A stretch of DNA of 64,000 bases, from positions 124,001 through 188,000 of the forward strand of contig JAACJO010000035.1 in assembly GCA_013368445.1 (NCBI GenBank), in the 5' to 3' direction. Of this stretch, positions 23,819 through 59,006 are shown one piece after another. Both the position numbers and the translations under genes were made by a program. The stretch comes from Leucocoprinus leucothites (lineage: Eukaryota; Basidiomycota; Agaricomycetes; Agaricales; Agaricaceae). The notes below the pieces were generated by a model that saw only the letters and a program-made list of their open reading frames with translations, was not told the DNA's origin and did no database searches. Numbering within the stretch: the first letter of the stretch is position 1; each line of letters begins with the position of its first letter.

Positions 23819-25070
23819 CTATTTACTACTGTTCTCACCCTCATCCTCTGCCTCACCTTCCTCCTCTCCAGCTTCCCCCTCATCCCCAGATCCAGCATCC
23901 AACTTCTCTGGCACGGTTTTCTTCTTAGCAGCCAATCTGGCATCCAACTCCACCCATGCCTTTTCATGTGCCTCATCACCCATCACCTTGTCATCCAGGA
24001 CAAGCTGGTTGTAGAACTCTTCAAAGTCCTTGGCCAGCCCATCCATGACCTTTGTCTGGGAGCAGATACTCAACAACACTGCCAAGTGCTGTGTGCCCAA
24101 CTCAGCTCGGATACCCTTCAACTCCTTCAGAATAGCCAATTGCATGGTGTGGGTCTTCCTCTGCTTGATGATGAGCTCATACATTTGTTCATGAGGCTGT
24201 TTGTCAGCCTCTGTTGGAACTGCACACTTCTGCTTTGAAGTATGACATAGCTCACACATATACTTGCCACTGTGAATGTTGTCAGTTGGTCAGCTGACCC
24301 AAGGAATTGGGAGTTACTCACACGTCATTTTGCTCAGTGTGGTTCTTACCTAGATGCAAGCACTACCCACACTTGTTTTTTCTACCCATCTTTATCTTCC
24401 CTCCCTTGGCGTCATAGTTTCCACATTTTCGGAGGGCAGCAGTCTTGTCTCTTCCATCTCTGGCCAAACCTGAGCTGGGTGTCCACAATGGATTGTTGTC
24501 TTGGTCATCCAGCTCTGTAAGTTGATACTTGGAGGGACCAGCAGCCACACTCCATTGAGTTAGCCTGGCCGTCTCAGCCAGCCCACTTGTCAGTTTTGCA
24601 CAAGGCTTTCAAACCCTGGTCCCCACCTTCGCATTTTCTGTTGTTTTCATTTTCTTTGCCAGACTCTCCACAATCTTGACTTTGACCTCTCTCTTCTTTC
24701 CCTTCCCTTTTTCCTTCTCCTGTCTTTCCTTCTCCTTCTTCTCAGCCTTAAGCTGAATCTGTTCCACAAGTTTGGCCTCTTCCTTCTATTTTTGTAGCTA
24801 CTCCTCTTCCTTGGCCTCTTTCCTCTTCCTCTCAGCTTCCTCTGCCTCTTTCTGTTTCTTCTCTGCCATCTTCCTGTGCAACTCTTCTTTTCTCTTCTGT
24901 AGTTCCTCTTCCTCATATTTCTTTTTCTTGGCCTCCTCAGCCTCTTGTTTCTTCCATTCTTCTTCTTTGGCTGCCTTCCAATTGTCCTCTTCTTCCAGTT
25001 TGTGCAACTCATTCTCCAAGATGCTATTGCTTGATGGGTTGGATCCATGGGTCATGGAGCTAGGCATCAT
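23819..25070 (-). pseudogene. Antisense accessory gene of K1: coiled-coil, Cys-rich protein with an intron
   Basis: Lies between pol and the 3' LTR on the opposite strand. From ATG at 25070 the product is a Lys/Glu-rich coiled coil (HKLEEEDNWKAAKEEEWKK), a basic linker, a conserved AAGPSKYQLTELDDQDN, a Cys-rich domain, a second helical part (LAILKELKGIRAELG) and an acidic tail. A 52-nt spliceosomal intron (24270-24321; GTGAGT, branch-like CTGAC, CACAG) lies in the antisense direction. Splicing it keeps the frame, giving EQNDV then GKYMCELCHTSKQKC. Four in-frame stops (TAG/TGA at Gln/Arg-type codons) inactivate this copy. K2 carries the same gene. Function unknown. DNA or RNA binding is a guess from the cysteines and coiled coil. 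Confidence 0.8.
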
Positions 25071-25199
25071 GGTAGTGTTAAGGGATTAAGTTGTGAGAAA
25101 GCTTAATTTTTTCCTCAGAGTGGAATTTATATGGAGTTTGAATTGGTTCCCATGATCAAGTCATGTGGTTTCGAGGGCTCAGCCCTAAGGGGGGAATAC

Positions 25200-31291: not shown

Positions 31292-32507
31292 AGTCATGAA
31301 GCCAGATGTAGCCTTGACCCTAGAGGTTGCCATTGATGGGCTTTAATCAGTACAGTATATAGCTACCAGTAATGTGGCATGCTTACCATCTTGGGCACGA
31401 CTGGAGGAGAAGTGCACAGTCTTGGTAGTGAGCTAGATGGCACCTTTATAAGCCTTGCTGTGAATATCCATACCTGGTACAAAGCCATAAGGGATATACA
31501 TAGTAGAGGAATGCTTCTTGAAGTCCTGTAGCAAAGAGGGTTGAGTCTCAAGAGCAGAAAGTCAGCAGAGAAAATTTGATACCCCAATATTAGCATTATC
31601 AATAAAGCCAGACAGGGTAGCACTAGGAGTAGTGCTAGTAAAGCCTTCATTGTTGACTACCATTTGAGTCTGGAAGAAAGAAAGCATTAGCTATATAGAA
31701 CAAGAGCTGGGTGATCATGATGAACTGGCCCAGGGGATACAGCACAAGGAACAGTGTTCTCAGTAGTGTGGTTGACAATCTGGACTTTGTCATTTTCAGA
31801 ATCAGAAGATGGGACCATGTCAGGGGAGACAACAGTCTTGCCACAACATTGTTATAGATAGTCACTATCATCAGGATAGCAATCACAAGCAAGAGAAACT
31901 TGCCTTTTTAGGGGGAGCTGAAGACTTGCTGGTGTTACTATTGGCAGCAGTGGTGATAGCACTCATGATGTATGCAGCAGAGCTCTCAACAGGAGAAGTT
32001 GCAGCTGTAGCAGAAGCTCCTCCCTCTCCAGAATTGGCCTTGGTATGGTTATACTGTTGGTTAATAGACTGGAGCTGATTAGTGATGGGGGGAAAGACAT
32101 AAGTAGTATCATGGTCCTTTTCCCAAGTCTCGAATATGCAACGAGCTTGAGAAATTAGTCTGAAATGTTCAGGCTTGCTAGCAGCAGAAGGATTGGTAGA
32201 GAACAAGTGAACAAAGGCCTCCTGAACACAGGTATCAAGAGCTCAGTCTTTGATGTTACACTTAGAGATGGATGGTTACATACTACAGGGGTGATAATAG
32301 CATTGAGAGCACTCTTAGTAGAGTTCATAGTGGTCTCACCTTGCGAGAGTCATTGAAGATGGTGCTGAAAGTTTGCTACAGCATCATTAAACTTGATAAA
32401 GGCATTGGTGGTTTCACCAGAACAGGAAGGAGTAACAGTAGACATCTCTGTGGGGGAAGAGCAGGGCTTGCAATAGGATGGTTGTCAAGATAAGCATAGG
32501 TCATAGT
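31292..32507 (-). pseudogene. Antisense gene remnant downstream of N pol
   Basis: Minus-strand coding character lies just 3' of the N pol gene. A start at 32442 (MSTVTPSCSGETTNAFIKFN) and the block QEAFVHLFSTNPSAASKPEH, FETWEKDHDTTYVFPP (32220-31883) fit one protein if an intron lies between them (GTGAGACC at about 32342 to CCCTGTAG). Downstream to 31300 the frame is broken. No cysteine cluster was found in this part. I do not recognise the family. By position it parallels the antisense genes of K and J. Element J inserted just upstream of its start. Confidence 0.45.
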
Positions 32508-33053
32508 TGTCAAGATTTGCGAAATACCGGCACTTACTAAGCGCACAAAAGTTACAGAGAGGTTGGTCGTTGGCTTCAGTGTATGTGCTGCACCCTTCCA
32601 ATATTGCATCAACCAATTTGGTCTATAAGGAAGATGACAGACTATACAAATTGGAATTCAACACTGAAGGAATAACAGACAGAGAATTCAGAGTGGAATC
32701 TTAGTTGATATTCAGAATGGGTAATACATGAGCTAGTAGCAACATATTTAAGATAATGCAAAATTGGACAAATAACACGTAAATATTGTGAAGCTCACAA
32801 TGCGATGATAAACAAATAAACAGATAAACAAAAGGTAAATAGACAATGACAGATGCAACACAATGGAGAATGACAAACATAAATGGAATGGTGGAAACAA
32901 ATATGAGCGCAAGTGAAAAGATGATAGAATGATGAGTGGAAACAGGCTGCGAAATATTTATAGAAATGGTAGATAATGAAAAATCACAGGAATTGGAAAT
33001 TGAAAGAATAGTCGGAGATCAAATTGGAGAGGTCATGATTGCAGATCATGACA
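32508..33053 (-). repeat. J 3' LTR
   Basis: 546 bp, TGTCAAGATTTGCG on the plus strand to GATCATGACA. It is the same length as its partner at 39902-40447. Differences between the two are nearly all transitions at CG/TG/CA positions (for example CCGGCAC versus CTGGTGC), as expected for decay of methylated CpG since insertion. Confidence 0.95.
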
Positions 33054-33133
33054 GTATTCCCCTTTTAGGACCAAGCCCTCAAGGACTTACTAATCCTTGA
33101 TCTCTTATCAAGATCATCTTGCCTCCTACCACC

Positions 33134-34339
33134 ATGGCTCCCCACTCCTCAAAGAAGAACCCCAACCTAAGCGCAATGACAAATGATGAACTCATGGCCA
33201 AAATTCAATGTTGGAACACCAAACAGGGAGCAAACGTATGGCCAGCAATGGCTGCAGTGTTGGGAATGACAATGAGTCAACCCAGCAACAGTGCGATAAC
33301 AAATCCAGCTCCTACTGTGACATGAAGGACCACTAGATCGGGACAGATAGTCCAAAGTGATGATGACAATGATGATGAAGAGGAAGAGTTGCAGATATTG
33401 TCCAAGGGTAAGGGGAGAGTGCCAATGAGGGCATCAACATTGGGATCGTGCGAAGTAATGGATCATGTATCCATTTCTGTTGCGACATTGAGTAGGGCTT
33501 TGTCAAGCTTCACTTGGAAGAAGAATGGTGCCCATCAGCAGAATCTGACCGATGGGCTACCTTACCAAAAGAGTTAGGTGATGTGTTTGCAATGTGTCGC
33601 TGGGCAGTGGGAGTGTAAGTCGCAGTGTGGATTAGGGAAATGTACATATTGTGCGCAAGCAAAGAAGGGGTGTTATAATCCACAGGATGATCCGAAAAAG
33701 GAGGCCTCTAGTCAAGGAGTGAGCTTGTTGTTGATCAGAGCAACAGCATCAAAAAAACGAAAAATAATGGCACCTCCCATGAGTCAACCATTGCAATTGA
33801 GCTCTGGTGATTGGGGATCGAGTTTCACACCTCCTCTGTCCACTCAACTGTCGTCCTCTTTGCAGTGGAATCTTCCTGAAATCCCACCTACTGTGGATGA
33901 TGATACATTTGGAGCAATAGAGATCAGGTCACCCATGATCGTTGCTGAACAGGACACTAGGATGGTGGTAAGTTTGTTTGCAGATTTGTGATGCAATGTT
34001 ACTAAAATTGCAATGAAGTCTCCTCAGCCCCTTCCACCCCAACTATTGTGGGCTCCTGGTCATTCCCCAAGTCTTTCGTGAGAAGTCACATGATTATCAT
34101 CAGCAGTGGACAATCTGGAGATCATGACAAGGGAAAATATGCAGGTGCAACTTCAGAATCGGGTTATGTTGCAACAGCAGATTAGCACATTGGATGAGCA
34201 GGTGTCGGCATTGAGGGAGACTACAAGGGTGTTACAGGCGCATGGAAGGACACTTGAGAGGCTCGTGGCAATCGAGGAGGTGAAGCTAGTGATGGGACAG
34301 GGATTGAAGGATGGTGCGGGATGTGGGTATCGGAAATGA
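33134..34339 (+). pseudogene. Antisense accessory gene of J: six-cysteine zinc-cluster-like and coiled-coil protein
   Basis: Opposite strand to J pol, between pol and the 3' LTR, the same place as in K. From ATG 33134 (MAPHSSKKNPNLSAMTND) the frame runs through an acidic patch (DDDNDDEEEE). A Cys-rich block at 33584-33673 has spacing C-x2-C-x6-C-x8-C-x2-C-x6-C (CLQCVAGQWEC, then CTYCAQAKKGC). That equals the Gal4-type Zn2Cys6 spacing, but the basic residues sit in the second half. A 60-nt intron (33968-34027, GTAAGT...CTCCTCAG) leads in frame to a C-terminal coiled coil (LQQQISTLDEQVSALRE). Three to four TGA/TAG stops break it. Function unknown. Confidence 0.78.
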
Positions 34340-34639
34340 GGGAAGGAGGGAGTAAAAAGGAAAAGGACTATAAAGAAAGGACTATGAAGATTGCTGTCAT
34401 CATTGTCATTGCTGCTTTTAGTGAAGAATATATGTATACTACTTGAATGTTTTTTCTCTTGGTTTTTCTTGTTTTGTAATAAATGATATCTTGATGGAAT
34501 GAAGTGAGTATGGTGTGAAAGAAAAGGAAATCAAAAATGAGATGTTAAGGACTGGGAATATCGACTTGGAATGAAAAGGAATGTTGCGAAAACATGTGAA
34601 AGAATGTCTGTAAAAGATTGAAAATGATAGTGAGTAGTT

Positions 34640-36231
34640 TTAAAGTGAAGAGAGAGGTCCAGGTTTATTGGGGTACATGTAGTGGAAGTTAGAAACTAGG
34701 TCTATGGCATGTTTGAGCTCTGTTGCAGGTAACCATGACTCTGCTTCGTCCATATCTTTGTAACCAAGCCATACTACTTTGTAAAGGAGTTTACAAGTGC
34801 ATTGATGTTGATCGATCTTTGAATCAACAATGCAATCAACTTTGTATTCTAGTTCTCCATCAACCTCCACTGTAGGTGGTGGTGATGTGACATGATTTGG
34901 AATGGAGCTGGGGGTGAAAGGTTCAAGCATGGAAACATGGAATACAGGATGAACAGTGTGCATAGAGTCAGGAAGTCGAAGAGTAAAAGAATGTGAACCT
35001 GGTTGGGAAATAATTTCGTAGGGTCCAAGGTATTTTTCGGAGAGTTTCTTTGAAGGTCTTGTCGTGCGGAAGTACTGTGCTTTGACAAAAACCTTATCAC
35101 CAATCTTAAATGCATGTGCAACAAGACAGCGATCATCAGCATTGGCCTGATAGCAATGCTGGGCATGAGCGATTTCCAACTTGAGAGTTGAATGTAGTTT
35201 GTCTAAATCCACAGCGAAGTCGCAAGCACAAGCTGATGCGAGATCCCTCTCAGGGTGAACTGTGATATTAGGGTGGTAACCTTTATTAGGGAAGAACAGA
35301 GAGATACCAGTGGTAGCAGAAGGAAAATTATTGAAAGTGAACTCAGCTATAGGTAATAGGTCAGACCAATTACTCTGTTGGTAGTTGCAATAAATGTGCA
35401 AGTACTGTTCAAGAGTTTGGTTAGTTCGTTCAGTCTGACCATCACCTTCAGGATGATAACCCAATGTAAAGTGTAACTTCATGTCCAAAGCTTCTCCTAG
35501 CAATTGGAAAAAGTGCAAAACAAATTCTGAACTGCAGTCAGAGGTAACATTAGCAGGGATACCATGTTTGGAGAAGACATGAATGACGAAGAGTTTAGCA
35601 AGTTCTATGGAAGTAATGGTATCATGAGTTGGAATGAAAATTGCTTGTTTGGTTAGCCTATCCACAATGACCAGAATTGAGTCAAACCCTGAGGACTTTG
35701 GAAGTTTTTCAATGAAATCCATAGAAATTGAATCCCAAGGTTGTGATGGTATGGGAAGTTGCTTGAGAGTTCCATAGGGACAATGGCGTCAAGCTTTCGA
35801 TCTTGAACAGGTAACACAACTTTTGCAGTAATCCTTGACAAAGTTGTGGATATTTGGCCACATATACTCATGGCGAACAAGTTCTAGAGTTTTGTTTTGA
35901 CCAAAATGGCCAGCGAGTGTATGGTTGTGATAGTACTGCAAAATGCGCAAATGAAGATCATTAGTATCAGGAACATAGATTCTACCATCAAGTAACAAGA
36001 AACCCTCAGAGTCTTTGGACCAGTGACCCTCTGGATGAGCAAAGTGATCAGAAACAGAATTGTCAGTGGAAATAGCAGAAAGAATGTCTGTGCAAAGTTG
36101 CAAAGTGTCCATAATAAGATCAGTATGTAGTGCAGGTGTATAAAGATATGAAGCACAAATAGAAGTAGAAAGTTGTTTGTTAGTAAAGACAGGTTGGAAA
36201 TTGTGAGGATTAACCATGGCATAGCCATTAT
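34640..36231 (-). pseudogene. J integrase with chromodomain
   Basis: Mostly open. Zinc part: HFGQNKTLELV and CKSCVTCSRSKA. Catalytic core: SMDFIEKLPKSSGFDSIL, TSDCSSEF (Asp) and YHPEGDGQTERTNQTLEQY (Glu). KYLGPYEIISQPGSHSFTL is the GPY-like region. The last ~60 residues, CKLLYKVVWLGYKDMDEAESWLP, form a chromodomain. The 360-aa segment from 35722 to 34640 is intact, so the chromovirus identity is clear. One break near 35790 separates it from the zinc part. Confidence 0.92.
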
Positions 36232-37620
36232 TCCCCCCTTTTGGGTAGATGTCCCAATGTCTAGTTAGGGCATCTGGTTTCATTCCAAGCTTACCAGGTC
36301 TAAATCGAATAACAAGGTTGAACTGCAATAAGAACTCAGACCATCTGGTTTGTCTGCGTGTTAGTATCTTTGTGGTAGAGAAATACTCAAGGTTCCTATG
36401 ATCAGTGACCACATCAATAGGAAGTGCAGTGCCTTCAAGATAATGGTGCCAGATTCGGAATGCTTCAAAAATTGCAAGCAGTTCCTTGTCGTGGGTGTCA
36501 TAGTTAAGCTTGGATGTGGAAAATGTACAGGAATGAAAAGTGATAGGGTGAATATCTCTATCAGGAGCAATGATAGAGAGTATAGCTGCCAGGGCATAGT
36601 CAGAGGCATCAGTTTCCACAATAATTTGTGTATCAGGAATTCAATGGGTAAGAACTGGTGCATGCATAAAGGCCTCCTTGAGGGAGTTAAAAGCCTTACG
36701 AGCTTTTTCATTGAAGTTCCACTGTATGTGTTTTCATGTGAAGCGAGTTAGTGGTACAACAATATCGGAATAACCATAAATGAAACGATGATAGAAGTTC
36801 ACGGAACCAAGGAAGGATTGTATGTCCTTGACCTTCTTCAGTTTGGGCCAGTCCTGGATAGTTTTTACCTTTTCTTCTGACATTTTCAGACCATCTGGAG
36901 AAAGAATGTAGCTGAGGTATTTGACTGTGTCAGTATGGAACTCGCATTTATCAGCACAAGCATAAAGGCCATTTTGGCACAACCTTTTAAGGACTTCACA
37001 AATGTGTTTGTGATGCAAATTAATGTCCTCCGAATATATGAGAATATCATCAAGATAAACGGTTACACATGTATCAAGAAGATCCTTGAAAATGTTGTTC
37101 ATGAATCGCTGGAAGGCAGCAGGAGCGTTGGTGAGACCAAAAGGCATCACAAGCCACTCAAATGAACCATAGTGAGTGCGGAATGCAGTTTTCCACTCAT
37201 TGCCTTCAGCAATATGAACCAAATGATAAGCATGTCGGAGATCAATCTTGGTATAGATACCAGCCTTTCACAGAGAGTCCAGCAAGTCAGAAATGAGCAG
37301 TAGTGGGTAGTGATCTTTCCTAGTGATTCAGTTAAGACCACGGAAATCAACACAGAGTCAAAGAGAGCCATCTTTCTTTTTGATGAAGAGAACAGGAGCA
37401 CCATGAGGAGAATTAGAAGGTCAAATAAAGCCAATGGAAAGATTTTCGTCAATGAATTCTCAGAGTGCAGCAAGCTCAACCTGCAAAAGCAAATAAATTG
37501 TTCCAACAGGAGGAGAAGCACCTTCCTCGAGATTAATGCGCAAGTCATAAGGTCAGTGAGGTGGAAGACTGTCAGCATGGGATTTGCTGAAAACATCTGC
37601 AAATTTGTGATATTCCAAAG
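36232..37620 (-). pseudogene. J reverse transcriptase and RNase H
   Basis: RT core on minus strand: [36 protein letters not shown], catalytic [12 protein letters not shown]. RNase H: IVETDASDYALAAILS, ELLAIFEAFRIWHHYLEG and DVVTDHRNLEYFSTTKILT. The last part runs open to KPDALTRHWDIYPKGG. TGA codons at about 36733 and 36641, and others at 37270-37400, replace Arg or Trp codons. The upstream linker carries HKFADVFSKSHADSLPPH, as in K1. Confidence 0.9.
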
Positions 37621-37873
37621 GAATGTTAGAAAGGTTGATGGGATCCTGTGAAGAAGAAGCAGCTCCAGCCACAGATGAGCACTGGAGATCCAGACCAAAA
37701 TGCATAGAGCCAGGTTGACAACAGACATGTGCAAATGCAGCCACGCCAATCAGTCAAACGTCAGGTCATGAAGAAGAAGAATCAGGAACTGGTGAGATTG
37801 TATCAGGAGCCAGTGATTTGGCAGAGATAGGTGGGCAGACAGAAGGAGTAGCAAGATCTGATTACAGAGTAGA

Positions 37874-38322
37874 TCAGAAAGCGATTTGACCTGAAACCCA
37901 ATCAATCAATGGATTATAGCAGGCAAGCCAATTATGTCCAAGAACCACAGAGCAAGACAGGTCAAGCTGAGTGACATAGAAGTCCAGATTTATACATTCA
38001 CCAGTTGGAAAGGAGATAGGGATTTTCGCAGTCTCTGAAATGAATGAATTAGATGAACCATCAAACAATTGCAACTCTACAGGAGGAATCGGAATAGTGG
38101 GTACACAATATTTATGAATAAGCGAATTGTCTATGAAGCAATGAGTTGAACCACTATCAACGAGTGCAGTAAGTGAAATAGGGAGTGAAGAAAAAGTAAG
38201 TGAAATATGAAGAGAGTTCGGATTGGAAAGAGTGGATGCATTGAGTCGAATACTCTCTGAAGCACAGGAGAGTTCAACACAATTCTCAGCCTGTGCAGAG
38301 TTCTGAGGATCACTCACTATTT
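37874..38322 (-). pseudogene. J aspartic protease
   Basis: Read in the -1 frame after gag. [17 protein letters not shown] leads to the active site [16 protein letters not shown] and [17 protein letters not shown]. The match to K1 protease is residue for residue over most of its length. DSGST is the canonical retropepsin triad, so this copy keeps its catalytic residues. The ORF ends at 37874, where the linker to RT has a stop. Confidence 0.88.
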
Positions 38323-39861
38323 TTTTGAACTCTTGGATTGAGAGCCCGAAGGTTGCAAAGCATCCTTGGAGTCTGTGTCAGCCTTGGCTTTTCACCCTTT
38401 AGGCTTGTTCGCATTAGAAGAAGAAGAAGTAGAATTGGAATTATTATTAGTATTACTGGACTCATTCTTGCGAGGACAGTCACGAATCATGTGGTTTCCA
38501 CCACAGTATAAGCATTGTCCATTTGCAATGCGATGCTGATGCTCTTGAGCAGTCAGCTTACTGTCCTTGTTGAGTTTTCTGGTGAGAGGATTGGAGGATT
38601 GTGATGAGGAAGGAGGATTCAACAGTTTCTGGAATGGTTTAGGATTGTTGGAAGGAGGATTGGAAGGTGTGTTGGACTGCTGCAATGAGTTCTGCTGGCG
38701 ATTGTTGTTGTTCTTCTTCCCCTTGTTTTTATTCTGCTGGTTCTGTGTATCAGGACGTGTCAAAGACTGACCTAGTTTTTCACCAGTACACTTCTTTTCA
38801 CAGACATGGGACCAGTAGTTGTTGTCAATTTGCATAGTGAGACATTGCATAGCAGCAAGGGAAGAGGGTTTGCCAGTAGGAGAGCTGGAAATGATGTTGG
38901 AAATGCGATCTGGAAGGCCTCGATAATAGTGGTAAACTAGGACATTGTCAGGCCATCCCAAGATACTAGCAAGTCATGAGAACTCAATGTTATACTTGGT
39001 TATAGTCCAGTTATGACCCATGCAAAGGTGTTCCAACTCCTCTGCTGCCTCTGTATCATGATCAAGGGCCCCAAAATTCTCATGCAACTCATCCACAAAT
39101 AATTGGAAATCCTGAAACCAGGAAATGACATCCCAATCGTACTCCACTTGAAGAACCATTTGAAAGTGCTGCTGAGCAGGTCCCTTGAGAAAGGTCATCG
39201 CAAAGCTAACCTTCACATGTTCTGTAGTGAATTGTGATGGATTAGTATTGAAGTATAAGTGGCATTGAAAAAGGAACTCGTCTAGTTTCTGAGGCTTGGA
39301 GCTGTCAAATGTGTCAGGCTCTTTAGCCTGAATGTGTTTCGTTTTAACTACAGGCTGGGGAGTATGGTTGCGATTTTTGAGGTTAGTTGCAAAACGATCC
39401 ATAATGTTCAGAAATTGTTCTTCAGGGTCTGGGTTTTGATGACAGCAGCGATGAGGAGGCTCATCAGGCTCATCCTCTGGGTCACCTTCATCATCAGGAT
39501 CATCATTGGGAGGACCTCCATCACCACCTCCACCTCCTGTATCAGCACCATCATTATCCAAATGTTCATCATCCTGACCCAAATCTTCAGTTTCGAAAAA
39601 TTGGGTATTGCCCTCTGGTTCTTGTGTGTTATTCTCCTCTTCTTCCTCATTGTCTTTGTTGTGGTCAACACTGACCTGGTCGTGCTCAGGCTGGGGTTCA
39701 TCTTCTTTGGACTTATGAATAGTCCTACATGAAGCTTCACACCCATTTCGAGGTAGACCTGAAAACCAAGGAGTAGAAGGTGTGCATCGAGAGGGAAGTG
39801 GATGATTCTGGACAGAAATACCATCAGTACAAGCAGTATTGCAAGTAAGAGTTGTAGACAT
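38317..39861 (-). pseudogene. J gag
   Basis: Starts MSTTLTCNTACTDGIS at 39861. An acidic, Gly/Asp/Glu-rich N-terminal region (about 55-150) precedes the capsid-like part (TFDSSKPQKLDEFLFQCHLY, SFAMTFLKGPAQQHF). A TGA at 38974 stands in an Arg position. After it the frame continues (LASILGWPDN) to an Asn/Ser-rich stretch and the knuckle CLYCGGNHMIRDC. A second TGA lies at 38392. The true end is TAG at 38317-38319, immediately preceded by seven A (38320-38326, gag frame A AAA AAA), with protease in the -1 frame beyond. Confidence 0.88.
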
Positions 39862-39901
39862 ATTAAGAGAACAATACCAAAAGTTGAGATTCTGAATATA
39901 C

Positions 39902-40447
39902 TGTCAAGATTTGCGAAATACTGGTGCTTACTAAGCATGCGAAAGTTATGGAGAGGTTGGTTGTTGGCTTCAGCATATGTGCTGTGCCCTTCCAATATCG
40001 TGTCGACTGATTTGGTCTATAAAGAAGATGACAGACAGTGCAAATTGGAATTCAACACTGAAGGAATAACAGACAGAGAATTCAGAGTGGAATCTTAGTT
40101 GATATTCAGAATAGGTAATACATGAGCTAGTAGCGACATATTTAAGATAATGCAAAATTGGACAAATAACACATAAATATTGTGAAGCTCACAATGCGAC
40201 GATAAACAAATAAACAGATAAACAAAAGGTAAATAGACAATGACAGACGTGACACGACAGAGAATGACAAACATAAATGGAATGGCAGAAATGAATATGA
40301 GTGCAAATGAAAAGATGATAGAATGATGAGCAGAAACAGGCTGCAAAATATTTATAGAAATGGTAGATAATGAAAAATCACAGGAATTGGAAATTGAAAG
40401 AATAGTCAGAGATCAAATTGGAGAGGTCACAATCACAGATTGTGACA
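39902..40447 (-). repeat. J 5' LTR
   Basis: 546-bp partner of the LTR at 32508. Right flank ATAGT (40448-40452) equals the left flank of the element. The gag start lies about 40 nt inside, after GTATATTCAGAATC. I could not identify a tRNA-complementary primer site with confidence. Confidence 0.95.
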
Positions 40448-41289
40448 ATAGTGATGATAGTTGGGGCTTTTAAACCCATGTCCTAAGGCTAGTTGACTCA
40501 TTCTAGACAGGGTATCACTGATAAGGTTGAATTTCAATTTTATATTTTTGGCCAATACCACCACATGCTAGCAGCAGTGGAGCTCTGAAGTGATAGTGAG
40601 TAGTATTCCAGTTGCATCACATGCATGAGTGAGGCACAGGCAATATTGCAAATTAGAAATAAATGAAGGACTTCCCTATGTGTTAGTGACAGGGGCATCA
40701 TTTACATAGTGAGGGGGAAAGGGGCCAATGCAGTGATCAGTAACAGTACATCTAGAGCTAAAACTTTAGTAAAAGGCAATCACAAGAATCTTGCAAATCA
40801 GTAAAAAGCTTATGCTGGGGGTAGGGTCTCACAGGTCTCACATGCATAATTAGTGGAACACAAGAATAAAATTGGAGATGCCAATATACAAGTAGAGATG
40901 CATACAAATAGTGAAGATACAGGGCAATGATAACACATGAGTCTGAATAAGAAAATGACAAAGATGGGAGCTCACAAAAGAAAGCAGACTATTGAGACTC
41001 ATGACAAAACTAGGAAAGCACAAGAAAGTAAAAATAACACAAGACTGGAGTTGAACCCAACCATAGAAAGTGCTAACAGGTGGTTGAACACTTGTAGTGA
41101 AGGCACAGGATAAAAAATTCTAATGCTGTAGACAGGAGTTAGCAATAAAGAGCAGGACAAGATATATGAAAGTTACCTTCTTAGCCTTGTTGCAATTAGG
41201 AAGGACATGTTTGACACAAGAAGGGCCTGCTTGAGAAGATGATGGTGTCATGGGAACAGAAATTGGCAAAGAAGAAGGGAGTGAAGAGG
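40448..41289. other. No recognisable feature
   Basis: AT-rich DNA between element J and the decayed minus-strand gene. Only short ORFs occur on either strand, without recognisable motifs. It is part of whatever element J inserted into. Confidence 0.6.
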
Positions 41290-49755: not shown

Positions 49756-51009
49756 CTACTTACTACCATTCTCACCCTCATTCTCACCCTTACCTTCTTC
49801 CTCTTCAGCCTCTCCCTTATCTCCAGACAGAGCATCTGATGTCTCTGGTATAGTTTCTTTTTAGTGGCCAATTTGGCATCCAACTCCATCTGTGCCTTTT
49901 CATGTGCCTCATCATCCATCACTTTGTCACCCAGGACAAGCATGTTATAGAACTCTTCAAAGTCCTTGGCCAGCCCATCCACAACCTTGGTCTGGGAATA
50001 GATACTTGATACTGCTGCCAAGTGCTGCATCCCCAACTTGGCTCAAATTCTCTTCAACTTCTTCAGGATAGCCAACTGCACAGCCCAGGTCTTCCTCTGC
50101 TCAACAATGAGCTTGTATGTTTGCTCATGAGGCTGTTTGTCAGCCTCTATCAGAACTGCATACTTCTGCTTTGAAGTGCAGCACAGCTCACACATGTACT
50201 TGCCACTGTGGATGTTTTCAGTTGATCAGCCAAACCAAGGAATTGGGAGTTACTCATGTGTCACTTTGCTCAGTGCAGTTCTTGCCCAAACACAAGCACT
50301 GCCCACACACATTATCTCTGCCCATCTTTATCTTTCCTCCCTTGACATCATAGTTTCTGCATTTTCAGAGGGTGGCAGTTTCATCTCTTCTATCCCCACC
50401 CAAACCTGAGCCAGGCATCCACAGCAGGTTGTTGTCTTGATCATCTAATTCCATAAGTTGGTACTTGGAGGGACCAGCAGCTGCACTCCATTGAATTAGC
50501 CTGGCTGTCTCAGCTGGCCCACTCATCAGTTTCACACAAGGTTTTTGAACCCCATTTCCCACCTTTGCATTTTCTGTCATTTTCTTCTTCTTTGTCAGAC
50601 TCTCCACTATCTCCACTTCCACCTCCATCACTGTCCTCTTTCCTTTCCCCTTCTCTTTCTCCTGTCTTTCCTTTTCCTTCTTTTCAGCCTCTAATCAAAT
50701 CCACTCTGTGAGCTCAGCCTCCTCCTCTCTTTGCAGCTGTGCAGCATCTTCAGCCTCTTTTATCTTCCTCTCTGCCTTTTCCACCTCTCAATGTTTCTTC
50801 TCAACCATTTTCTTCCTCAACTCTTCCTTCCTCTGTTGCCACTCTTCCTCTGCTCATTTCTTTTTTGCAGCTTCCTCAGCCTCCCTCCTTTTGTGATCCT
50901 CCTTCTTGGCCACTTGACAAGTGTCCTCTTCCTCCATCTTGTGAAGTTCCTCCTCCAGGTCATTGTTGGATATCAGATTGGAATCCTGGGTAGTGGAAGT
51001 AGGTGCCAT
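49756..51009 (-). pseudogene. Antisense accessory gene of K2
   Basis: Colinear with the K1 antisense gene. Start MAPTSTTQDSNLISNNDLEE at 51009, coiled coil with EEWQQRKEELRKKMVEKKH, then AAGPSKYQLMELDDQDN, and cysteines in VCGQCLCLGKNC and CELCCTSKQKYA-type remnants. At the K1 intron donor (GTGAGT) this copy reads ATGAGT, so splicing would fail. The acceptor side CATCCACAG is kept. The third Cys (TGC) corresponds to CAC in K1. Both can arise from CGC, so that Cys may not be ancestral. Confidence 0.72.
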
Positions 51010-51138
51010 GGTAATATTAGGGGATTAAGTTGTGAGAAAGTTTAATTTTTTCCTCAGAGCGGAATTTATATGGAGTTTGAATTGGTTTCCACAATCAAGT
51101 CACATGGCTTTGAGGGCTCAGCTCTAAGGGGGGAATAC

Positions 51139-57780: not shown

Positions 57781-59006
57781 TTAGCTGTTTACCTCGGATA
57801 CACACTCCCAATTGCCCTTAAGATTCTCCTTCCACAGAGTAACCTTTCCATCACCACAACTGACAGAGAGAAGGTTCCCGGACAAACTCCACGAGACACG
57901 CCAGACGACATCGGGGAATTTTCCAGCTGGTGGCTGAGCTCCGCCCGTGGACGCAAGACTTGAAGAAGGGTCAAGGGCCGTCTTGACCCAGGGAGAAGTA
58001 GGAGAATCCTTCGTCCAGATCAACACGGCTTTATCTTGAGAAGCAGTGGCGATATAGGAGCGAGGTAGACCGATATTAGGTGCCCATGCCACGTCTCGAA
58101 CCCAATCCGTATGGCCTTCTAGAGTCTCCTCCTCAACCCAGGATTGTGAATCCTCACGGTAACCCCAAATCTTCACAAGGTTGTCACAACCTGCGCTTGC
58201 AAAACGCTTAACAGAAGGTGCCTGCGTTGAAGGGGGTTGACCCGGTGCTGCGGGTGACTGCTGAGGGGAGATAAGAGAGCCAGGGAGTACAGCAGGGGAC
58301 CAGGAAACAGCGTTACACCCGATGGCATGGCCGTTGAATATATCAGCGTCCCACTGGCCATCATCTACGCGGTGTAAAATGTATCAGTGACGTGAATTAC
58401 TATCGAAGCTAGGGGACAAACTTTTGAAAGTTAACACGGAGAGCTTTCCATCTGAGGAGGCACAAGCGAGGATAGCTCCTAGTTCATGGGGTGCCCAAGA
58501 AACGGAGTTGACTGTGACGTATTTAAGTGATATAAGTGAATGAAGTCATGAAGCGAATCAATACGCACCTGAGGCAGAATGCAAACTATGCTCGCCGATT
58601 TTGATCCAACCACCTTGAGGAGCTTGTTCCTTCCATATTAATACTTTGCCATCATACGAGCATGAAGCCAGGATATGACCATATTTTGGATGGGCCCAGG
58701 CAACCTGCCAAACGGGGCCAGTATGTCTACCCGAATGTGAACAAGACTAGAGCGTGAAGGTCTTTGAAGTACTAACCCCTTGAGAGTCTGGCCACCCGAG
58801 GAGCGCTGGGCCTCACCATCGACGACATCGAAGACCTTTACGGTGCGATCGGAGGAGCAGGTGGCTAGTCGCTTTCCGTAGTAGTCTAACTGGGCATCAT
58901 GCTACGCGTCGACTCAGTAATAAGCGGAGAGACAACCAATTAATTGACACACGATCATGTCCTCATGGGACGTTTCAATCGGCACAGAGTCGGATGTCGC
59001 CGCCAT
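57781..59006 (-). CDS. SEC13: Sec13, COPII coat and nuclear pore beta-propeller
   Basis: WD40 protein that pairs with Sec31 in the COPII cage and with Nup145/Nup96 in the nuclear pore. Five exons on the minus strand: 59006-58953, 58901-58777, 58726-58569, 58511-58422, 58364-57781. They sum to 1011 nt, 336 aa plus stop, with phases consistent throughout. Evidence: [19 protein letters not shown] at the start, [72 protein letters not shown] and [15 protein letters not shown]. The last repeat ends [13 protein letters not shown] Pro/Ser/Gln-rich loop ([13 protein letters not shown]) interrupts blade 4 and makes it slightly longer than the yeast protein. Convergent with SHP1. Confidence 0.95.

Follow-up and report, generated by a model that had tools for sequence, protein, structure and literature searches.

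An intron-bearing antisense gene with a cysteine cluster in Ty3/gypsy elements of the fungus Leucocoprinus leucothites

Elements of the J family in Leucocoprinus leucothites carry an intron-bearing gene that is read against the element, and we conclude with moderate confidence that it is a protein-coding antisense accessory gene of the J lineage, whose product is most likely a nuclear regulator of element transcription or silencing. Transcription of the gene would run inward from the element's 3' end, followed by splicing and translation, and the product would enter the nucleus and act on expression or silencing of its own element. The intron would not be lost on retrotransposition, since all that the spliceosome meets in the genomic (sense) RNA is the intron's complement.

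In the window (the whole 64-kb stretch of DNA that was analysed), J is a complete single Ty3/gypsy insertion on the minus strand, at 32508-40447, with LTRs of 546 bp and a 5-bp target duplication:

32503..32507, no strand: target-site duplication ATAGT, left of J
32508..33053, minus: 3' LTR of J, 546 bp, ends TGTCA...TGACA
34640..37749, minus: J pol remnants (Pfam)
38392..39903, minus: J gag region, DUF4939 above and Retrotrans_gag below the Pfam cut-off (38974-39903 scanned)
39902..40447, minus: 5' LTR of J, 546 bp
40448..40452, no strand: target-site duplication ATAGT, right of J

LTRs, target duplication and the order RT-RNaseH-integrase are all present in J, which belongs to the Ty3/gypsy lineage and probably to a lineage with a chromodomain. 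In Pfam scans of pol, RT, RNase H, H2C2 and SH3_Tf2-1 scored above their cut-offs and rve and Chromo below theirs, the Chromo match (E 8.6e-5, 22.8 bits vs a cut-off of 25.1) lying at the expected place, the integrase C-terminus. The 3' and 5' LTRs are 90.8% identical, and 44 of their 50 differences are CpG-like transitions, as are most of the shared differences among J copies. J elements thereby exhibit strong CpG decay, a pattern that would be expected from decay of methylated DNA. Elsewhere in the window, a minus-strand WD-repeat frame (57781-58383), which we take to be SEC13-like and probably a host gene, adjoins a repeat-rich stretch.

The antisense gene, listed here with its upstream elements, lies in the interval that separates pol (34640-37749, minus) from the 3' LTR (32508-33053):

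32955..32964, plus: candidate TATA TATTTATAGA for the J antisense gene, inside the 3' LTR, 179 nt before the ATG
33054..33133, plus: polypurine tract (element strand) and antisense-gene leader of J, the first part common to families K and M
33134..34339, plus: J antisense gene, whole, ATG at 33134, stop at 34337-34339
33134..33967, plus: exon 1, 278 codons, two in-frame stops in the window copy
33584..33673, plus: J Cys block, residues 151-180, seven Cys
33752..33763, plus: KKRK in the J product, residues 207-210 of copy L014, identical letters in the window copy
33968..34027, plus: intron, 60 nt, GTAAGT...TCAG
34028..34339, plus: exon 2, stop included, two internal stops in the window copy

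The first-pass annotation had placed an antisense gene with an intron at 33968-34027, and the ATG, the stop, the GTAAGT...TCAG boundaries and the placement all bear it out. The window copy is broken by four in-frame stops (at 33323, 33575, 34079 and 34091), so the J antisense gene is real at the level of the family and dead here. The motif TATTTATAGA occurs 178-180 nt upstream of the antisense ATG, inside the LTR, in 29 of 30 J copies, and is a candidate promoter element of the gene; the kind of TATA box that families K (six copies) and M (one copy) have outside the LTR, 59-63 nt ahead of the ATG, was absent from the four J copies inspected. The predicted product consists of an N-terminal helix, an acidic stretch, the cysteine cluster and a basic patch, and its KKRK is presumably a possible nuclear localisation signal. 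In the structure model of the J product, pLDDT was below 50 for 222 of 285 residues. The C-terminal coiled coil that had been assigned to J was not confirmed: its hydrophobic heptads were no better than those of shuffles (1485 of 2000 equally good), and Pfam gave sub-threshold matches only (e.g. Synaptobrevin, 17.4 bits vs a cut-off of 26.4).

A DNA search of the 47-Mb L. leucothites assembly with the J antisense gene returned 40 matches, and 43 were obtained with one protein segment as query; the copy statistics refer to the 30 best of the 40 DNA matches. The intron is 60 nt long in 29 of these copies and 61 nt in one; its GT persists in 29 copies and its AG in all 30, and each Cys of the block is retained in 29 or 30 copies. 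Frame length and terminal stop are kept in 18 of the 30, and a complete frame of 381-382 codons with no internal stop is present in three (L013, L014 and L016), among which L014 adjoins an open pol frame of 1260 aa. Twenty-three of the 40 gene matches lie antisense to and downstream of an RT match (19 of them at 2504-2579 nt), the RT matches being the best 150 of 661 candidates, so that the lack of a listed RT is no evidence that none exists. When all three families J, K and M are counted, an antisense gene lies 1.5-6.5 kb downstream of 61 of the same 150 RT matches; as controls, four have the gene in sense and four gene matches fall on the upstream side. The gene in these elements is therefore placed as in the plant element Retand, antisense and in the interval between pol and the 3' LTR.

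Selection on the J gene has to be read against its CpG decay, with 205 of 241 shared differences (shared meaning at least three copies) being transitions at CpG sites, where omega is 1.10. Under strict masking, with all columns removed in which at least one copy has CpG (29 J copies, shared meaning at least two copies), shared transitions numbered 30 non-synonymous to 24 synonymous, where a ratio of 2.23 would be expected (omega 0.56, p 0.025), and singletons 83 to 25 (omega 1.49; Fisher p 0.0067); in the control, the pol C-terminus of 24 copies, shared changes were 6 to 13 (omega 0.23) and singletons had an omega of 0.91. Looser CpG masking gave 15 to 19 for the J gene (omega 0.34, shared meaning at least three copies). 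Taken singly, neither exon was significant (p 0.056 and 0.19), and the signal was gone when CpG sites were pooled in (shared omega 0.94). The opposite-strand frame with aligned third positions gave an omega of 0.37 vs 0.34 for the gene under the looser masking, so the substitution test alone cannot fix the strand, which is established by start codon, intron and complete frames. Shared variants per masked site were 59/892 in the gene, 24/994 in pol, 4/50 in the intron, 49/273 between genes, and 11/242 and 21/252 in two LTR stretches; they are thus rarer in the gene than between genes, and the gene is not better conserved than the LTR. Pairwise omega was 0.31-0.32 for L016 vs L013 or L014 (dS 0.19-0.20) and 0.94 for the close pair L013-L014. 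Taken together, coding constraint on the J antisense gene is weak. One could regard the gene as a non-functional relic retained by hitchhiking, given that it is broken in 27 of the 30 copies (the window copy among them) and that one of these, L015, has a frameshifted gene even though it also has a 1260-aa open pol alongside; the coding bias in shared non-CpG changes and the low omega of the L016 pairs speak against this, and we hold it to be improbable.

The sister family K is represented in the window by a decayed copy of its antisense gene:

23819..25085, minus: K antisense gene, decayed window copy, upper limit approximate

A second K-type antisense remnant lies at 49851-50225 and 50752-51021 on the same strand. 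The K gene encodes 400 aa and has a 52-nt intron within the Cys block; the public annotation D9756_004556 (P0002) is the identical 400-aa model, and D9756_009846 is a further public L. leucothites protein of the K family. Our K sample comprised nine copies, several picked for adjoining open pol frames, and six of the nine are open, a share that is no rate, given this selection for open pol. Between three subgroups of K, dS was 0.42-0.70 and omega 0.07-0.13; in the youngest subgroup one pair of copies shows no difference, and omega was 0.60-1.90 in the remaining pairs, where changes are few. Comparison of L071 with L080 shows 10 synonymous changes in the Cys block and not one that is non-synonymous. 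Purifying selection acts strongly on the K antisense gene. In family M (L082) the antisense gene encodes 402 aa and has the Cys spacing and intron place of K; its intron could be 61 or 52 nt, both of which fit the frame, and 52 was chosen by analogy with K. Exon 2 of the M copies has 41% identity to that of K, and additional matches exist at 31-58%. The K structure model has additional long helices.

Convergent antisense transcription is known as one way to bring about silencing, and coupled with the weak coding constraint on J this could mean that the antisense unit acts mainly as RNA, through interference or as a silencing trigger, and that its frame is incidental. We regard such a role as very improbable in view of the low omega between K subgroups, the complete frames and the conserved splice pair, and retain the reading of a protein-coding gene.

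Several other gypsy copies were inspected. A reading of L075 (C4:1216800-1219800) as a third family without the Cys block was dropped: its sister copies carry the block, so L075, an M copy that lies beside a 1257-aa open pol, is one with an internal deletion that removed the Cys block and the C-terminal region and left the frame open. L076 (C2:71400-74400) and L078 (C9:447200-450200) form one gypsy family, with pol frames of 1138 aa and 1049 aa and, downstream of pol, two long and almost fully overlapping sense ORFs (440 and 454 aa; 402 and 450 aa), one of which has CCHC-like motifs. Another gypsy element, L077 (C15:437400-440400), has a 1309-aa pol frame followed by a 526-aa sense ORF, and no antisense frame above 106 aa in the 3 kb inspected.

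J had been described as differing from K in its LTRs and in most of its non-pol sequence, and this was confirmed. The pol pieces are 65-83% identical, the pieces that we take to be protease and gag are 61% (over 154 aa) and 34% (over 128 aa) identical, the LTRs align over a 35-nt boundary stretch only, and the antisense genes have no match at the DNA level. K and M do carry the antisense gene at the same position and in the same orientation as J, as had been proposed; the introns, also listed as a shared feature, are at different places, inside the Cys block in K and M and downstream of it in J. These differences, together with C-termini that show no similarity (1144 of 2000 shuffles as good), would fit J and K genes that were captured separately, unrelated to one another and convergent in position, orientation and Cys content. 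At the protein level, the J-K score of the first 30 residues was reached by 2 of 2000 shuffles, that of the first 60 by 27 of 2000, that of the Cys block by 3 of 2000 and that of the full proteins by 3 of 500, and none of 3000 shuffles reached the score of the J block vs K and M combined, all of which argues against separate captures. With Cys positions held fixed the block similarity becomes marginal (131 of 2000, or 291 of 2000 in global mode; 136 and 192 of 3000 for J vs K and M), and the full proteins give 41 of 500 in global mode. The profile-profile comparison that had been suggested was likewise divided, hhalign aligning J with K and M at an E of 0.0029 (for a single comparison) and a probability of 10.7%, with nothing found in global mode, and at a probability of 3.2% for K without M. 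At the DNA level, J, K and M have in common the boundary/leader and polypurine-tract DNA beside the start codon (J-K leader alignment score 62 vs 28 for the best of 500 shuffles), which, like the related pol pieces, speaks against separate captures. We consider these captures unlikely, and from the sequence comparisons common ancestry of the J and K antisense proteins is probable, though not proven. The proposal of an antisense accessory module kept in the lineage is upheld by the same place in K and M, the purifying selection on K, the common leader DNA and the N-terminal and Cys-block similarity; the part of regulator or silencing suppressor that had been suggested for it is a putative one.

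Zn2Cys6 clusters (PF00172) have six Cys in the spacing C-x2-C-x6-C-x5-12-C-x2-C-x6-8-C. The spacing of these elements is like that of Gal4 and AlcR, C-x2-C-x6-C-x8/10-C-x2-C-x6-C, with x8 between the triads in J and x10 in K and M. The spacing first reported for J is thus correct, except that its x8 spacer holds a seventh Cys (C-x2-C-x6-C-x3-C-x4-C-x2-C-x6-C); the basic second half noted at the same time is found in J (net +2 vs 0) and not in K and M, whose first half is more basic than the second (+3 vs +1). Zn_clus (PF00172, cut-off 21 bits) gave no match to J, either native or with the halves exchanged, and one of three Cys-fixed J shuffles gave 8.6 bits. Native K matched in fragments below the cut-off, its first half on the second half of the profile (18.0 bits; whole protein 13.1), and with halves exchanged it gave a single unbroken match that exceeded the cut-off (24.0 bits); M rose from 14.3 bits native, below the cut-off and alongside zf-CW at 14.1, to 19.0 bits. 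Among 13 Cys-fixed K shuffles, three scored 19.4, 19.3 and 12.9 bits and ten gave no match. In searches of the structure archive, the native K block found a PINCH chain best (E 0.016) and then AlcR (E 0.05), the exchanged K block found AlcR alone (E 0.022), and the J block found no match. An exon-wise search of the genome, which handicaps K, gave 20 Zn_clus matches, all of them away from J and K genes, and structure models of the Cys block are of low confidence. The reading of a zinc cluster with reversed halves is suggestive, and for K only, since scrambled controls come close, at up to 19.4 bits. The Gal4-type label that J had received found no profile or solved structure behind it, and stands on the spacing of the cysteines and on the resemblance to K, whose own Zn_clus match is sub-threshold in native form.

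The cysteine block may bind metal and nucleic acid. The product might serve replication or packaging rather than transcription, for example as an accessory protein that binds RNA or Gag. C-x2-C-x6-C clusters with lysine-rich helices could bind RNA, no profile favours DNA binding for J, and the strong constraint on K is silent on which step is served; the sub-threshold K matches to Zn_clus and AlcR and the acidic stretch and KKRK patch of J count against such a role, which we rate as unlikely. A far-reaching version of the nuclear regulator that we prefer would be an HBZ-like fungal system, with a spliced antisense gene, a dedicated promoter and a reversed-half Zn2Cys6 DNA-binding head, of which J and K would be diverged versions matched to their own LTRs; this is speculative and we think it distinctly unlikely in full.

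Relatives of these proteins are few. Searches with J, K and the K Cys block, by a method that requires shared 5-residue words, found only P0001, P0002 and P0003, and no further relatives were confirmed in scans of viral contigs. P0002 and P0003 are from L. leucothites. The only match not traced to the L. leucothites assembly is P0001, a protein from a JGI metagenome, which over 74% of the query has 99% identity to a J copy. Within the open-access literature, the titles and abstract openings of the matches listed contain neither a coding gene antisense to a fungal LTR element nor a permuted Zn2Cys6 cluster. PMC10648671 deals with non-coding antisense transposon RNAs in a fungus, and the word 'antisense' is absent from the searched text of PMC3411680 on Laccaria elements. 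Tcn1-like elements are fungal chromodomain Gypsy elements whose abstract opening is without an antisense gene (PMC2864245); J would resemble them as a probable chromodomain Ty3/gypsy element in a fungus.

Antisense accessory genes have already been described in plant retrotransposons and animal retroviruses, and by analogy with these the most likely role of the J product would be that of a regulator. According to passages of PMC11963269, the plant elements Retand, Grande and RIRE2 carry an antisense ORF in the interval from pol to the 3' LTR, and that of Retand, present in most clusters, has been proposed to encode a DNA-binding regulator. J resembles Retand in having an antisense gene in this interval, and differs in that Retand is of a plant non-chromovirus lineage and encodes a protein with a TRP28 domain (PF04195), whereas the J-type gene has an intron and a Cys cluster; TRP28 had no match in the J or K proteins scanned. 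HBZ of HTLV-1 is an antisense gene read from the 3' end, with a spliced form and a nuclear product that represses HTLV-1 via the 5' LTR, as passages of PMC10186651 describe. Here the likeness is the antisense gene, and reading from the 3' end, a spliced form and a nuclear, LTR-acting protein would extend it if J works as we propose; HBZ differs in being a bZIP protein (no Pfam match to bZIP was found in the J or K proteins scanned) of an animal retrovirus, and the TATA box of K and M lies outside the LTR. The layout itself is thus already known, and what is new here is an intron-bearing antisense accessory gene with a Cys cluster in fungi. If fungal elements do carry such a gene under purifying selection, the layout would have more than one origin or a greater age than has been assumed; J, K and M would offer natural pairs of antisense gene and LTR for studying how regulator and LTR are matched, and they suggest how a retroelement may retain an intron, namely by carrying it in the orientation opposite to that of its genomic RNA.
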